Source of the DNA: an uncultured bacterium
GTDB lineage: Bacteria > Hydrogenedentota > Hydrogenedentia > Hydrogenedentales > CAILVY01
NCBI GenBank assembly: GCA_937951485.1
Contig: CALEDJ010000025.1
Location: forward strand, 29,346-93,345
Length of the DNA: 64,000 bases
Direction: 5' to 3'
In this document: positions 33,534-39,520 of the stretch, piece after piece
How the letters are laid out: every line of letters begins with the position of its first letter
Position numbering within the stretch: position 1 is the stretch's first letter
Translations under genes and position numbers: made by a program
The notes under the pieces: generated by a model
What the model was told of the DNA's origin: nothing
Databases searched by the model: none
What the model saw: the letters and a program-made list of their open reading frames with translations, nothing else

Positions 33534-34904
33534 ATGAAAATAATGTGTCAATATGTCGTCGCCCTGTGCTGCGCGGCTGCGCTGTTGAGTGGCTGCGACG
33601 CAGTGCGCCGCAGCGGCGGCGATGCTTCGGAAGAAGTGAAGGTTGAAGTCGCGGTGTTTGAAGGCGGCTATGGCGTTCACTGGCATATGGGGGTCGCACG
33701 GCGTTATGAACAGGAAATGGCGGCGCAGGGAAGGACAGTGCGCGTTGATTTATGGGGTGATCCCCGGCTCTCGGAGAAAATAAAGCCCCGTGTTCTTCGG
33801 GGGGACCCGCCCGACCTTGTCTTGATGCACGACCTGCCGTTATGGTTGCTCATTGCGGCAGGGAAGGTGTTGCCGTTTGACGATGTGCTGGACCAGCCGG
33901 CGGTGGGCGCCGACGGACGATGGCGCGATCTGTTCATGCCCGGCATGTTGGCCACGTACCGGGCCGATGACAGGACCTTTGCGGTTCCATCCGCGGTACA
34001 GGCGTGGGCATGCTGGTACGATGCGCGGCTTTTTCGCAGGCACGGCTGGACACCGCCCGCCACATGGGCGCAGTTTATGGCGCTGTGCGACAGCATTCAA
34101 GCAACGGGTATCGCACCGCTCGCGTTTCAGGGCAAATATCCGGGCTATGCCTGGTTCACGTTCATTTCGCTGGTGCAGCGTTGCGGGGGTCTGGCGGCCA
34201 TCAATCGCATCAATCTCATGGAAGAAGGCGCATTCAGGCACCCGGATGTGGTCTGGGCCGCGTCGCTGCTTCAGGACATGGCGCGTCAGCATTTCCAGCG
34301 CGGCGCAATGGCCATGACCCACACCGAGAGTCAGTTGCAGTTCGTGAACAACCAGGCGGCGCTCATCTTCTGCGGTCTGTGGCTGCACAATGAAATGAAA
34401 GCCTCCACGCCACCGGGCTTTGAAATGCGCTGTTTTACCGTGCCCGCCGTAGAAGGCGGCAAAGGCAATCCGCGGCTGATAAACGGCGCGGGCTCGGAAT
34501 TTTTCTTCGTGCCCGCTGACGCCCGCCGTCCGGAAGAAGGCTTCGCATTCGCGAGGTACATGATTTCTCCGCGCAACGCGCCGGAAATGGGCAGGGCCAT
34601 CGGCGTGTTGTCGCCGTTGCATGGCGGTACGCCGCGTGAGGCCCTGGACCCGCCGCTTCAATCCGCGATGGACATGATAGACCAGGCGGAGGGGTTCTTC
34701 TATGAACGCACCTTTGAATTACTGTTGGAATGGACCAATCAGGTGATGCAACCCGGCCTTGCCGCGCTTTTGCGCGGCGAGTTGACGCCGGAGGCCTATT
34801 GCGCGGCATTGGACCGGGGCATGGCCGAAGCGAAAAAGAATCCGGACCTCATCATTCCCGTATATACGCCGTTTGATCTGACGCAATTTGGGGAGACGTC
34901 ATGA
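33534..34904 (+). CDS. sugar ABC transporter substrate-binding lipoprotein (family 1)
   Basis: 456 residues. The signal peptide ends in the lipobox LSGC (Cys21). The mature protein is a two-lobed family 1 solute-binding protein: PPDLVLMHDLPLWLLIAAGK, VPSAVQAWACWYDARLFRRH followed by WTPPATWAQFMALCD, and an INGAGSEFFFVPADARRPEEGFAFARY-like C-lobe (the INGAGSEF and FAFARYM segments are seen). It captures oligosaccharides for import by the two permeases directly downstream, with the 3' gene overlapping by 4 nt. The ATG at 33534 lacks a strong ribosome binding site. The ligand is unknown; the surrounding glycosidases suggest plant- or algal-type oligosaccharides. Confidence 0.88.
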   Translation: MKIMCQYVVALCCAAALLSGCDAVRRSGGDASEEVKVEVAVFEGGYGVHWHMGVARRYEQEMAAQGRTVRVDLWGDPRLSEKIKPRVLRGDPPDLVLMHDLPLWLLIAAGKVLPFDDVLDQPAVGADGRWRDLFMPGMLATYRADDRTFAVPSAVQAWACWYDARLFRRHGWTPPATWAQFMALCDSIQATGIAPLAFQGKYPGYAWFTFISLVQRCGGLAAINRINLMEEGAFRHPDVVWAASLLQDMARQHFQRGAMAMTHTESQLQFVNNQAALIFCGLWLHNEMKASTPPGFEMRCFTVPAVEGGKGNPRLINGAGSEFFFVPADARRPEEGFAFARYMISPRNAPEMGRAIGVLSPLHGGTPREALDPPLQSAMDMIDQAEGFFYERTFELLLEWTNQVMQPGLAALLRGELTPEAYCAALDRGMAEAKKNPDLIIPVYTPFDLTQFGETS

Positions 34905-35818
34905 ACCGCGATTATGGCCGGAGCATATTCATTGCGGTATTTCTCGCGCCGGCCCTGGTATTGTTCACCGCATTCGTGGCGCTGCCCGGCGTGCGCGCGC
35001 TGCTCTACAGTCTGCAACGCTGGGACGGGTTGACCGAAGCGAGATGGGTTGGCCTGGACAATTTCGCACGCCTCTTCCGCGAGGGCGATCTGTTTCTCAT
35101 CGCGCTGGGACACAACCTTTTCCTGCTGGCCGTGGCGGGATCGCTCATTCTTGTTCTGGCCCTGGCCTTCGCTGCGATGCTGCACCGGCGTATCCGGGGC
35201 GCGGGGCTTTTCCGCGTCGCGTTCTTCTTTCCCAACGTGATCGCGGCGGTGGCCGTGGCGCTCTTGTGGATTCTGCTCTACAGCGCCACGGATTTCGGCG
35301 TGATCAACGCCGCGCTCGGCGCGTTCCAACGCATGTGCCATTCCTTCGGATGGGACTGGCCGCGCGTGCCCCTGCCGTTTCCATTTCTTGATTCCCGGTA
35401 TCTCCTTTATTCGTTGATCCCGATGATGGTCTGGAGCGCGGTGGGCTTTTACATGGTGCTCTTTCTCGCGGCGATGGAAGGGATTCCGGAGGAGTATTAC
35501 GAAGCGGCGAAGATTGACGGCGCGACGCCCCTCCAGCAGTTTCGCCACATCACGCTGCCGCTGATCCGCGAGGTCTTCACCGTCGGCGTGGTGTTTCTCG
35601 TGATCACGAGCCTGAAGTTTTTTGATCCCATCTGGGTTATGGAAAATCAGCGGCCGACCCGTGACTCGCATGTCCTGACCACACTGCTGTACCAGAAGGT
35701 CTTCACCGAGTACAACGTCGGCTACGGGTCCGCCGTAGCCGTGATGCTGTTTCTGCTGGTCTTCTGTGCGACGCTGATCAGCCTCAAACTGTCGCGCGCG
35801 GAAAGGGTCGAATACTGA
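34901..35818 (+). CDS. sugar ABC transporter permease (MalF/UgpA type)
   Basis: 305 residues with six predicted membrane segments. The cytoplasmic EAA loop contacting the ATPase is present as EEYYEAAKIDGATPLQQF, near residues 195-215. The ATG at 34901 overlaps the stop of the binding-protein gene (ATGA), and its own stop overlaps the start of the second permease (TGATG), showing tight translational coupling. Together with the next gene it forms the transmembrane channel of a carbohydrate importer. No ATPase gene follows; a shared MsmX-like ATPase encoded elsewhere is likely. Confidence 0.9.
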   Translation: MNRDYGRSIFIAVFLAPALVLFTAFVALPGVRALLYSLQRWDGLTEARWVGLDNFARLFREGDLFLIALGHNLFLLAVAGSLILVLALAFAAMLHRRIRGAGLFRVAFFFPNVIAAVAVALLWILLYSATDFGVINAALGAFQRMCHSFGWDWPRVPLPFPFLDSRYLLYSLIPMMVWSAVGFYMVLFLAAMEGIPEEYYEAAKIDGATPLQQFRHITLPLIREVFTVGVVFLVITSLKFFDPIWVMENQRPTRDSHVLTTLLYQKVFTEYNVGYGSAVAVMLFLLVFCATLISLKLSRAERVEY

Positions 35819-36936
35819 TGCGCGTCACTCTCGCCAAATCGGCCGCATGCCTGCTTCTTTGCGGGTGGTTCGCCGCCGTGGCGTTGCCCTTGGGATGGGT
35901 TTTTCTGAATTCACTGCGCAGTTCCCAGGAATTCGTCGCCAATCCCTTCGGATTGCCGTGGTTTCTGACCGGCTCCCCGCCGGACGGACGCCTCTCCTTG
36001 GAAGAACTGGATGCGGCAGGGGCCCGCCATGACGCACCAGAGATAGACCTGCCTCGGCAACTGCGGACGCAGTTTGATCTCTTGGACGCCGACGGCAACG
36101 GCTTCATCACCGAAGAAGAAGCGCGTGCGGCCGGACTGGGAGAGGCGCAGTGGGGGAGGTCGCTGCGCCTGGCGGACCGGCCGGGGTCGCGGCGCGCCGC
36201 CTGGAAGGAAGTGAAGGCGAACTACGCGAAGGCGTGGGTGGAATCGCGTTTCAGCAGTTTCTTCACGAACAGCATCATTGTCACGGGTACCTCTTTGGCG
36301 GGCATACTCGCTGTCGGCGCAATGGCGTCCTATGTGCTCGCCCGATTCACCTTCGCCGGATCCCGCGCATTGTTTCTTTTCTTCATCAGCGGCATGATGA
36401 TCCCCGCGCAACTGGTGCTGGTGCCGCTGTTCTTCCAGTTCACCTGGATGTCGCAGGCCGGCACGCGGCTGCTGCAGCCATTCGGCCTCGAACTGCAGAT
36501 GCACGATTCGCTTTCCGGACTCATCGTGATCTACATCGCCCTGAGCCTCCCCTTCACCATTCTGGTGCTCACTGGATTTTTCAAAACCCTCCCCGGCGAA
36601 CTGCGCGAAGCGGGCATCATGGACGGCTGCGGCGAATACCGCGTCTTCTGGCATATCATGCTCCCGCTTGCGCGGCCCGGCATCATCACCGCTGCCATCT
36701 TCAACTTCATCGGCCTGTGGAACGAGTACCTGTTCGCGCTGGTTTTTGTAAATGCGGCGGACAAGAAGACACTCCCGCTGGGGCTGGCCAGTGTCAGCAT
36801 GCAGTCGCAGTACAAGACCGATTTCGGCCTGCTCTTCGCCGCGTTGGTGATCACCATTGCGCCGACCTTGCTGGTGTATATGCTGCTGCAACGCCGCCTG
36901 ACACGCGGGATCACGGTCGGCGCGCTTAAGGGGTGA
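35818..36936 (+). CDS. sugar ABC transporter permease (MalG type) with an EF-hand insertion
   Basis: 372 residues, about 90 longer than usual MalG-type permeases (270-290). The first membrane segment (about 8-32) and the core membrane region with EAA loop ELREAGIMDGCGEYRVFW are typical. Between membrane segment 1 and the core, residues about 55-140 form an insert with a canonical EF-hand loop, D90-A-D92-G-N94-G-F-I-T-E-E-E101 (nt 36085-36120), preceded by the amphipathic helix LRTQFDLL. Upstream, PPDGRLSLEELDAAG looks like a second, degenerate EF-hand half. The topology puts the insert in the periplasm, where calcium could bind. The gene starts at the stop of the first permease. Ca2+-dependent gating or binding-protein docking is inference. 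Confidence 0.88.
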   Translation: MRVTLAKSAACLLLCGWFAAVALPLGWVFLNSLRSSQEFVANPFGLPWFLTGSPPDGRLSLEELDAAGARHDAPEIDLPRQLRTQFDLLDADGNGFITEEEARAAGLGEAQWGRSLRLADRPGSRRAAWKEVKANYAKAWVESRFSSFFTNSIIVTGTSLAGILAVGAMASYVLARFTFAGSRALFLFFISGMMIPAQLVLVPLFFQFTWMSQAGTRLLQPFGLELQMHDSLSGLIVIYIALSLPFTILVLTGFFKTLPGELREAGIMDGCGEYRVFWHIMLPLARPGIITAAIFNFIGLWNEYLFALVFVNAADKKTLPLGLASVSMQSQYKTDFGLLFAALVITIAPTLLVYMLLQRRLTRGITVGALKG

Positions 36937-36965
36937 TGGACTGGGGCGCGGAGTCGGGCGGACGA

Positions 36966-37019
36966 GTCGGACCGGTCGGACACGTCGGACATGTCGGATA
37001 TGTCAGTCATGTCGGACAC
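36966..37019. repeat. 9-nt-period array, six units of GTCGGACAN
   Basis: GTCGGACCG, GTCGGACAC, GTCGGACAT, GTCGGATAT, GTCAGTCAT and GTCGGACAC lie immediately downstream of the permease operon, 54 bp with no interruption in the 9-nt register. Confidence 0.85.
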
Positions 37020-37262: not shown

Positions 37263-38531
37263 ATGCGTCGCATGAGAACCAGAATCAAAACTCCGGCCTT
37301 CGATTGGATTTGCCACGGATGCGCCAAACAATCCCCGCTGTCGGAGGAACATACGTGCCCTGAGTGTGGAGAGCCACGCGCCTTGTACGCGCTGGCCGAG
37401 CCATCGGCGCGGTTGATGTGCCGCACACCTGCATCGCTCTGGCACTACGCGCCGTTGCTGCCGGTTTCGCAGCGCCGCTGCCGCATAACGTTGGGTGAAG
37501 GCGCGACGCCGCTTGTGGCGGCGCCGCGTCTGGCAAAAATCTTCTGTCTTGGGGAACTGCAAATCAAAAATGAAGGGGCCAACCCCACAGGTTCCTTCAA
37601 AGACCGTCAGGTTTCCGTGGGCATTTCGCACGCCAGGGAACTGGGTGCGAGAACCGTGGCGGCGGTGTCATCGGGCAATGTCGCAACGGCGACGGCCGCC
37701 TATGCGGCCCACGCCGGAATGCGCGCCGTGGTGTTCATGCACGCCCACGCGGGCGCGGGCAAGATCACTCAGGCGATAATGTATGGCGCGACGGTTATCC
37801 GGGTGGACTCGGACGCGCCTAGCGCGGTGTTTCGACTATGCATGGACGCCTGCGCCATATACGGCTGGGCGCACCTCTCCACCGCGGGCATGTATGAACC
37901 TTACAATGTGGAAGGCGCGAAAACCATCGCCTATGAGTTGTTTCAGCAATATAAGGGCGATTTGCCGGACTGGGTCGTCATGCCCGTGGGCGGCGGCGGA
38001 TTGCTGGGCGGCGTCTGGCGCGGCTTCACTGACCTGCAACGACTCGGCCTTATTGACCGTTCTCCACGTCTGGTCGGGGTGCAGGCTGCGGGGTGCGCTC
38101 CGCTGGTGAAGGCGCTCAAGGAGGCAAAGGACTATCTGGATACCCTCAAAGACCCCTGGCCGAATCCGAAGACCATTGCCGGTGGCATCGCGGACGACAT
38201 ACTCTTCGACGGGCACACCGCGCTGCCCGCCATTCGCTGCACCGGCGGCGCGGCCTTCGCCGTACCCGATGAGGCCACCTGCGCCGCGCAAAAGATGCTT
38301 GCGGAGGAGGAGGGATTGTTGTGTGAGTTGACCAGCGCTGTTGTGTTCGCTGCGTTGGAGAAAATGGTTGACCGTATCGCCGGTGAACGGGTGTGTTGTA
38401 TCATGACCGGCAGCGGGTTTAAAGAATTGGCGCAGATGATGGAAAATGCGCCGATGCCGCCGGTAATTCCACCGGATATCAACGCGCTGGCGAATATGCC
38501 GGCGACAATGGGGGAGCGCAACAGCCTGTGA
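37263..38531 (+). CDS. thrC: threonine synthase-like PLP enzyme with N-terminal zinc ribbon
   Basis: 422 residues. An N-terminal zinc ribbon (Cys17, Cys20, Cys32, Cys35: CHGC and CPECG) precedes a fold-type II PLP domain with Lys113 in NPTGSFKDR, SSGNVATATAAYAAHAG and the phosphate-binding loop PVGGGGLLGG. Threonine synthase converts O-phosphohomoserine to threonine in the cytoplasm. The zinc ribbon is common in bacterial paralogues of this family, so a close relative such as a cysteate- or diaminopropionate-type lyase cannot be excluded. The ATG at 37263, or the ATG at 37272, lacks a clear ribosome binding site. Its stop overlaps the GTG start of the next gene by 4 nt. Confidence 0.8.
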   Translation: MRRMRTRIKTPAFDWICHGCAKQSPLSEEHTCPECGEPRALYALAEPSARLMCRTPASLWHYAPLLPVSQRRCRITLGEGATPLVAAPRLAKIFCLGELQIKNEGANPTGSFKDRQVSVGISHARELGARTVAAVSSGNVATATAAYAAHAGMRAVVFMHAHAGAGKITQAIMYGATVIRVDSDAPSAVFRLCMDACAIYGWAHLSTAGMYEPYNVEGAKTIAYELFQQYKGDLPDWVVMPVGGGGLLGGVWRGFTDLQRLGLIDRSPRLVGVQAAGCAPLVKALKEAKDYLDTLKDPWPNPKTIAGGIADDILFDGHTALPAIRCTGGAAFAVPDEATCAAQKMLAEEEGLLCELTSAVVFAALEKMVDRIAGERVCCIMTGSGFKELAQMMENAPMPPVIPPDINALANMPATMGERNSL

Positions 38532-39520
38532 GCGCGCGGATGTTGCTTTTTGCGTTGGTCATTCTGACCGGATGCGGGTCGCGGGAAACCGTTGTGATAT
38601 ACAGTCCGCATGGAGCAGCGATGCTCAGTGACTATAAGCGGCTTTTTGAGTCTGCCCATCCCGGCGTGAACGTGCGGTGGGTCAACATGGATTCAGAAGA
38701 GACATTCAACCGGATTTCCTCGGAGCGGGCCGCCCCTGTCGCTGATGTGTGGTGGGGCGGCCCAGTCGCTGTGTTTCAGCGGGCCGCCGGCGAAGGATTG
38801 CTTGAGACCTATCGGCCCTCATGGGCGGCTCAGGTTCCGGATGCATACAGGGACCCGGACTGGCGTTGGCACGCGACTTTTCTCTCGCCCATGGCGATTG
38901 TGTTCAACATGCGGAAGTGGAGTTCCGCCGATGTTCCGCAAACCTGGGATGAATTGCTCCAACCCAAATGGTCGGGTCGTATTGTGCTCTGCAATCCGGC
39001 CTCTTCAGAGGTCATGCGCCTGTTCCTCTGTGCGATGATCCTGCGTGCGCCCAGCGAGAAAGCCGGTTTCGCCTGGCTGAAAGCGCTGCATGCCGCTACG
39101 CGCGACTATCCTGAAAACCCGGCATTTCTCTTCGATCTTCTGAGCAGACGGGCAGACCTCATCAGTGTGTGGTTGCAGTCGGATGTCATGATCCAGCGCG
39201 AACGTAACGGGTTTCCATTGGATTGTATTGTGCCGCCGGACACCCCGGTGTTCTCCGAGGGGATTGCCATTGTTGCAAATGCTCCCCACCGGAACGTCGC
39301 CGAAAAGTTTTACGAATTCGTCACGAGTGAACACACCCTCGCCCACCAGGCGCATATATATTCCAAGCGTCCCGCAAGAACGGATATAGACTTGGCGCTG
39401 CTTCCGGAATGGATGCGTGAGTCTTCCCTGGTCCCCATGAACATGGAGGAAAAGGCGTTGGAGGCCAAGGGGCGGGAATGGTATGCCCGGTGGGAATGGG
39501 ATGTCTATCAGGCAAGATGA
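38528..39520 (+). CDS. extracellular solute-binding lipoprotein (iron/AfuA-like), no cognate permease nearby
   Basis: 330 residues. A GTG start at 38528 (GGGGAG about 11 nt upstream) overlaps the threonine synthase stop. The lipobox LTGC gives Cys16. The fold is that of family 8/Fbp-like binding proteins: TVVIYSPHGAAMLSDYKRLFE, then VADVWWGGPVAVFQRAAGEGL, MAIVFNMRKW, PQTWDELLQPKWSGRIVL and VFSEGIAIV. Relatives bind ferric iron, polyamines or phosphonates. No permease or ATPase genes are nearby, so it may work with components elsewhere or act as a sensor subunit. The reason for coupling to threonine synthase is unclear. Confidence 0.8.
   Translation: MSARMLLFALVILTGCGSRETVVIYSPHGAAMLSDYKRLFESAHPGVNVRWVNMDSEETFNRISSERAAPVADVWWGGPVAVFQRAAGEGLLETYRPSWAAQVPDAYRDPDWRWHATFLSPMAIVFNMRKWSSADVPQTWDELLQPKWSGRIVLCNPASSEVMRLFLCAMILRAPSEKAGFAWLKALHAATRDYPENPAFLFDLLSRRADLISVWLQSDVMIQRERNGFPLDCIVPPDTPVFSEGIAIVANAPHRNVAEKFYEFVTSEHTLAHQAHIYSKRPARTDIDLALLPEWMRESSLVPMNMEEKALEAKGREWYARWEWDVYQAR

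Follow-up and report, generated by a model that had tools for sequence, protein, structure and literature searches.

A predicted EF-hand pair in the first periplasmic loop of a MalG-type permease of Candidatus Hydrogenedentota

Does a sugar importer of an uncultured member of the phylum Candidatus Hydrogenedentota carry a calcium-binding domain in one of its own membrane subunits and, if so, what might such a domain do there? The question is raised by a permease gene in the 64,000-nucleotide stretch of DNA analysed here (henceforth referred to as the window), the product of which was noted in a preliminary description of the sequence as being longer than usual and as containing an EF-hand loop, from which calcium-responsive control of sugar import was proposed.

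The operon and its MalG-type permease

The gene is the third and last of a tightly packed operon with the order SBP-MalF-MalG, in which the start of malF overlaps the stop of the SBP gene (ATGA in the junction sequence) and the start of malG overlaps the stop of malF (TGATG in the junction sequence). The three genes are as follows:

33534-34904, + strand: solute-binding lipoprotein (SBP), NgcE-like (Pfam SBP_bac_1, E 2.6e-21; NCBIfam TIGR03851 NgcE, E 1.3e-70)
34901-35818, + strand: MalF/UgpA-type permease partner, 305 aa, without a P2-like insert in the orthologue alignment (PF00528, E 2.9e-12)
35818-36936, + strand: MalG-type permease with the insert, 372 aa (PF00528, E 1.5e-21; model pLDDT 91.9; Z 22 against E. 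coli MalG)

The SBP-MalF-MalG order is also found in relatives, and orthologues of the SBP adjoin MalF and MalG in other species. Among named contigs, those nearest to the MalG-type protein belong to Candidatus Hydrogenedentota, and a planctomycete origin was rejected on this basis. The C-terminal two thirds of the MalG-type protein constitute a BPD_transp_1 permease domain (PF00528, 77.4 bits against a cut-off of 26.4), and its EAA region reads EAGIMDGCGEYRVFWHIMLPLARPG in translation. An AlphaFold model built with 75 homologues (pLDDT 91.9, pTM 0.85) has the MalG fold, aligning to E. coli MalG (2r6g_G) with a Z score of 22.2 over 273 residues and an rmsd of 4.0. By similarity, the SBP falls in the N-acetylglucosamine/diacetylchitobiose binding-protein family. 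Its score against the NgcE equivalog model TIGR03851 (238.6 bits) lies under the cut-off of 399.65 that would mark an NgcE-type chitobiose/GlcNAc importer, and we therefore assign no substrate to the importer. No ABC ATPase match was found on the contig that carries the operon, and an ATPase encoded elsewhere must therefore serve the importer.

Just downstream of malG, the window contains an antisense open reading frame (36531-37019) that opens with a repetitive MSDMTDISDMSDVSDRSD stretch (window 36937-37019), which suggests a short simple repeat at this place. At window 37263-39520, a second SBP gene, of the SBP_bac_6 type and unrelated to the first, has no adjoining permease genes and shares 4 bases with the gene for a threonine-synthase-like PLP enzyme, the N-terminus of which resembles a zinc ribbon.

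Sequence and predicted structure of the insert

The additional length of the permease, which the preliminary description correctly saw and put at about 90 residues, is nearer 66 residues when measured against orthologues (the sister orthologue has 306 aa), and a difference of about 90 is reached against the shortest homologues. It is accounted for by the following features:

35971-36201, + strand: EF-hand-pair insert, residues ~52-128, between TM1 and TM2, periplasmic (orthologue comparison)
35971-36006, + strand: EF loop 1, residues 52-63, GSPPDGRLSLEE, degenerate (conserved positions in four species; bridge residues 59-60)
36085-36120, + strand: EF loop 2, residues 90-101, DADGNGFITEEE, complete Ca2+ ligand set (Pfam; PDB sequence matches; bridge residues 96-97)

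All six residues that had been singled out beforehand (D90, D92, N94, G95, I97 and E101) are present at the positions given, and the degenerate partner hand that had been proposed was recovered as the loop at residues 52-63. The two loops start 38 residues apart, a spacing that is that of canonical pairs (the loop spacing in the EF pair of calmodulin is 36). The 12-mer of loop 2 fits a PROSITE-type EF loop, with complete ligands at positions 1, 3, 5 and 12 (D90, D92, N94 and E101), and a 12-mer EF pattern occurred in only 85 of 200,000 shuffles of the whole permease; the strict 13-position PROSITE pattern fails in loop 2, where the 13th, hydrophobic position is taken by A102. Four Pfam EF-hand families (EF-hand_5, 6, 1 and 7) match residues 81-104 with E-values from 8e-5 to 1.4e-3, all of them under the curated cut-offs (22.4 against 25.9 bits for EF-hand_5); single EF-hands often score under these cut-offs. 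A profile of the insert from the four species that carry it aligned over both hands with the EF-hand pairs of secreted proteins of the phylum (hhalign; E 9e-6, 48% identity), and a phmmer search of the PDB returned calmodulins and a four-EF-hand calcium-binding protein. The profile was also searched in the 68 genomes of the phylum, all of which belong to one order, and in a total of 386 genomes; its only matches were the four permeases and an EF-hand repeat protein (G021, E 1.4e-6). Of 11 EF key positions picked from the EF consensus, 8 are invariant in the four carriers, compared to 13 of the 77 insert positions overall (hypergeometric p 8e-6).

In the AlphaFold model, the insert has block mean pLDDT values of 72-88 and comprises helices at residues 61-70, 78-84/86-89 and 99-104 and strands at 59-60 and 96-97, where the EF loops bridge (as read from the DSSP string of the model). 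The model thus contains two helix-loop-helix hands with 12-residue loops and a short beta bridge, the entering helix of hand 1 being a short turn only (48-51). Just four alignment rows cover the insert, and the model is there not mainly a result of coevolution. The same insert elements appear in a first AlphaFold model made with 8 sequences (pLDDT 47, poor in the membrane part), residues 52-108 of which align to calcineurin B, CHP1, NCS-1, MCFD2 and calmodulin with Z scores of only 3.4-4.0. Overall, judged by sequence and predicted structure together, the insert is a genuine two-EF-hand domain, with a degenerate first loop and a complete second one.

Both the orthologue alignment and the structure model place the insert between TM1 and TM2, in the first periplasmic loop of the permease, as had been thought most likely. 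It is periplasmic because three membrane crossings separate it from the EAA loop in the cytoplasm, a topology that follows from established knowledge of the family and from the helices of the model. The membrane part of the model, at TM1, aligns to MalF from MalF residue 58, and the sequence profile rejoins MalF at residue 258. MalF P2 comprises residues 91-271 (PMC3150292), and the insert therefore lies at the P2-equivalent place of the other subunit. P2, which contacts MalE in the maltose transporter of E. coli, is likewise an additional domain on the periplasmic side, and its place in the partner subunit corresponds topologically to that of the insert. P2 is, however, ~180 residues long and not EF-hand-like, whereas here MalF is plain and MalG bears the extra domain. 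The protein shares its six-TM fold and its EAA loop with MalG/UgpE/SugB-type CUT1 permeases (PF00528), with Z 22 against both E. coli MalG and SugB; their TM1-TM2 loop, in contrast, is short, and here an EF-hand domain of ~66 residues is added to it.

Occurrence and divergence of the insert among relatives

A clear orthologue is present in 21 genomes of the phylum, in one of them as a fragment only. The insert, ~70-80 residues long, is present in 4 and absent in 16 of the 20 orthologues that cover the TM1-TM2 region; the carriers are the window protein and its counterparts from G016, G026 and G037, three species in a single other genus (family f11). The sister species from the window's own family (G001), with a permease 80% identical outside the insert, has a short linker without the insert, and the loop is also short in about 70 wider homologues from Verrucomicrobia, Armatimonadetes, Gemmatimonadetes, Chloroflexi, Actinobacteria and others. 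This distribution agrees with the earlier statement that an EF-hand is not a normal part of such permeases and rules out a general feature of the transporter family, while the homologous inserts in three other assemblies rule out an assembly artefact. The four carriers do not form one clade in the best core tree; a single clade is not rejected (p-AU 0.33), and the tree is poorly resolved. The insert may have originated by one gain with losses, by two gains or by transfer.

The secreted EF-hand repeat proteins of Hydrogenedentota (e.g. L170, L171, L062 and L211) contain EF pairs similar to the insert in spacing and sequence but are soluble and not inserted in a transporter, and from this similarity they are likely to be the kind of source from which the insert came. 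One of them (L170, G000:C20:57873-58319) has pairs closely similar to the permease insert; it also weakly resembles lanmodulin and members of other bacterial EF-hand families, with every match under cut-off. Two others of secreted type, L171 (G000:C45, ~1060 aa) and L211 (G021:C84, an open frame of ~1425 aa), have some 20 or more EF-hands, which in L171 are separated into blocks by GEGEGE linkers. Long GEGEGEGE runs also lie between the domains of L181 (G000:C5), and similar poly-GE tracts recur in the genome.

Large, unrelated inserts occupy the same TM1-TM2 loop in other MalG-type permeases from this genome and from elsewhere in the phylum, with ~340 residues in L034 (G000:C5:167841-171545), ~70 in L032, ~60 in L033 and ~150 in L066 (G009), and this loop seems to be an insertion hotspot. 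Permeases from this genome whose alignment with the query begins at residue ~79 (e.g. L033) were considered as sharers of the insert and ruled out, their inserts being unrelated and non-EF.

With respect to the ligands, hand 1 of all four carriers retains positions 5, 6, 8 and 12 but no longer has those at positions 1 and 3. Hand 2 of the three other carriers keeps positions 1, 5 and 6 and has Asp or Glu at position 3; its position 12 is V, V or T without gaps (G in the gapped alignment) and not glutamate. From this pattern it follows that the EF fold has been preserved even in proteins whose Ca2+ site may have been lost. The orthologue alignments of MalF and the SBP from the carriers revealed no obvious co-occurring novelty.

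The main rival explanation holds that the insert is tolerated and decaying, i.e. an EF-hand segment that drifts in a length-tolerant periplasmic loop and has no role in transport. We consider this possible, if on the doubtful side. It would account for the patchy distribution over two genera from different families with a sister lacking the insert, for the degenerate hand 1 and the missing Glu12 of hand 2 in three species, and for the fact that same-genome permeases have unrelated inserts, about 60 to 340 residues long, in the same loop. It is also consistent with the fast divergence of the insert among the three close carriers, where dN is 0.45-0.59 compared to 0.10-0.13 in the rest of the protein, a difference of about 4-6 times, and dN/dS is 0.15-0.65 compared to 0.05-0.12; at the widest, omega reaches 0.67 in the insert and spans 0.05-0.2 in the rest. 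However, these dN/dS estimates, which are rough with synonymous sites near saturation, are all below 1 in the insert, the EF key positions have been selectively kept (p 8e-6, as above), and the reading frame is intact in four species from two families.

Proposed role and its meaning

Our best reading, to which we give tentative and somewhat less than even confidence, is that the insert may serve, on the periplasmic side, as a docking or stabilising module that is rare and is itself stabilised by calcium. The MalG-type subunit has acquired, in its first periplasmic loop, a two-EF-hand domain such as occurs in the phylum's secreted EF-hand proteins, the host transporter being a sugar importer of the NgcE/MalE type (CUT1). 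Hand 2 would bind one Ca2+ in the window species and the EF pair would fold into a rigid unit at the outer surface of the permease, where it could stabilise the loop and/or offer a docking surface for the lipoprotein SBP, with Ca2+ acting mostly as a constitutive structural ion rather than as a switch. We infer this docking or stabilising role by analogy with MalF P2 and with AlgQ2, the SBP of an alginate importer, in which an EF-hand-like Ca2+ site contacts the permease (PMC5717064); docking of the binding protein by the insert is plausible. EF-hand-like Ca2+ sites are found in several SBPs of MalFGK-type importers (AlgQ1/AlgQ2, Smon0123 and FusA), whereas here the predicted site is in the permease and the [DN]-x-[DN]-x-[DN] motif was not found in the SBP of the operon. 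Counting against the proposed role, orthologous transporters that are 60-80% identical and have no insert presumably function, three of the four carriers are without Glu12 in hand 2, the dN of the insert is high, and neither MalF nor the SBP has a matching feature.

A calcium-responsive gate, in which the domain would be switched by changes in periplasmic Ca2+ and would thereby control import or the docking of the SBP, appears unlikely to us. The complete ligand set of hand 2, the bridged EF pair of the model and its periplasmic position on the binding-protein side speak for such a gate; against it, the three other carriers have not conserved the ligands, the insert is missing from most orthologues, and there is one complete hand only. 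Regulatory EF pairs usually have two working hands. The preliminary description, which favoured calcium-responsive control of sugar import, named loss of the acidic ligands in orthologues as evidence against it, and such loss is seen in part, in the missing Glu12 of three of the four carriers, 16 of the 20 orthologues lacking the insert altogether. Beyond the ligands themselves, we found no positive support for this form of control, and from the three carriers without Glu12 and the sister without the insert it follows that calcium control cannot be a conserved feature of the transporter. It is likewise improbable that the permease's own periplasmic EF pair binds Ca2+ and directly modulates SBP docking, making this a calcium-tuned importer with its sensor in the membrane subunit. 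A chance resemblance, by which an acidic linker would merely look like an EF-hand, can be set aside as very improbable, for despite Pfam scores under the curated cut-offs and the unmet 13-position PROSITE pattern there are two hands at canonical spacing that are conserved in four species, a profile match at E 9e-6 and a predicted EF fold.

A MalG-type permease with an EF-hand pair is rare, with no earlier description found; searches of the open-access literature turned up no ABC permease described as having an EF-hand, a result that counts as weak negative evidence. Importer permeases seldom have additional periplasmic domains, and those that are known have been informative, MalF P2 having helped to reveal the way in which binding proteins signal through the membrane. 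The EF-hand domain, at the P2-equivalent site of MalG, is an independent natural experiment. Since transporters that are about 80% identical exist with and without the domain, its effect on SBP docking, on stability and on Ca2+ dependence is directly testable.
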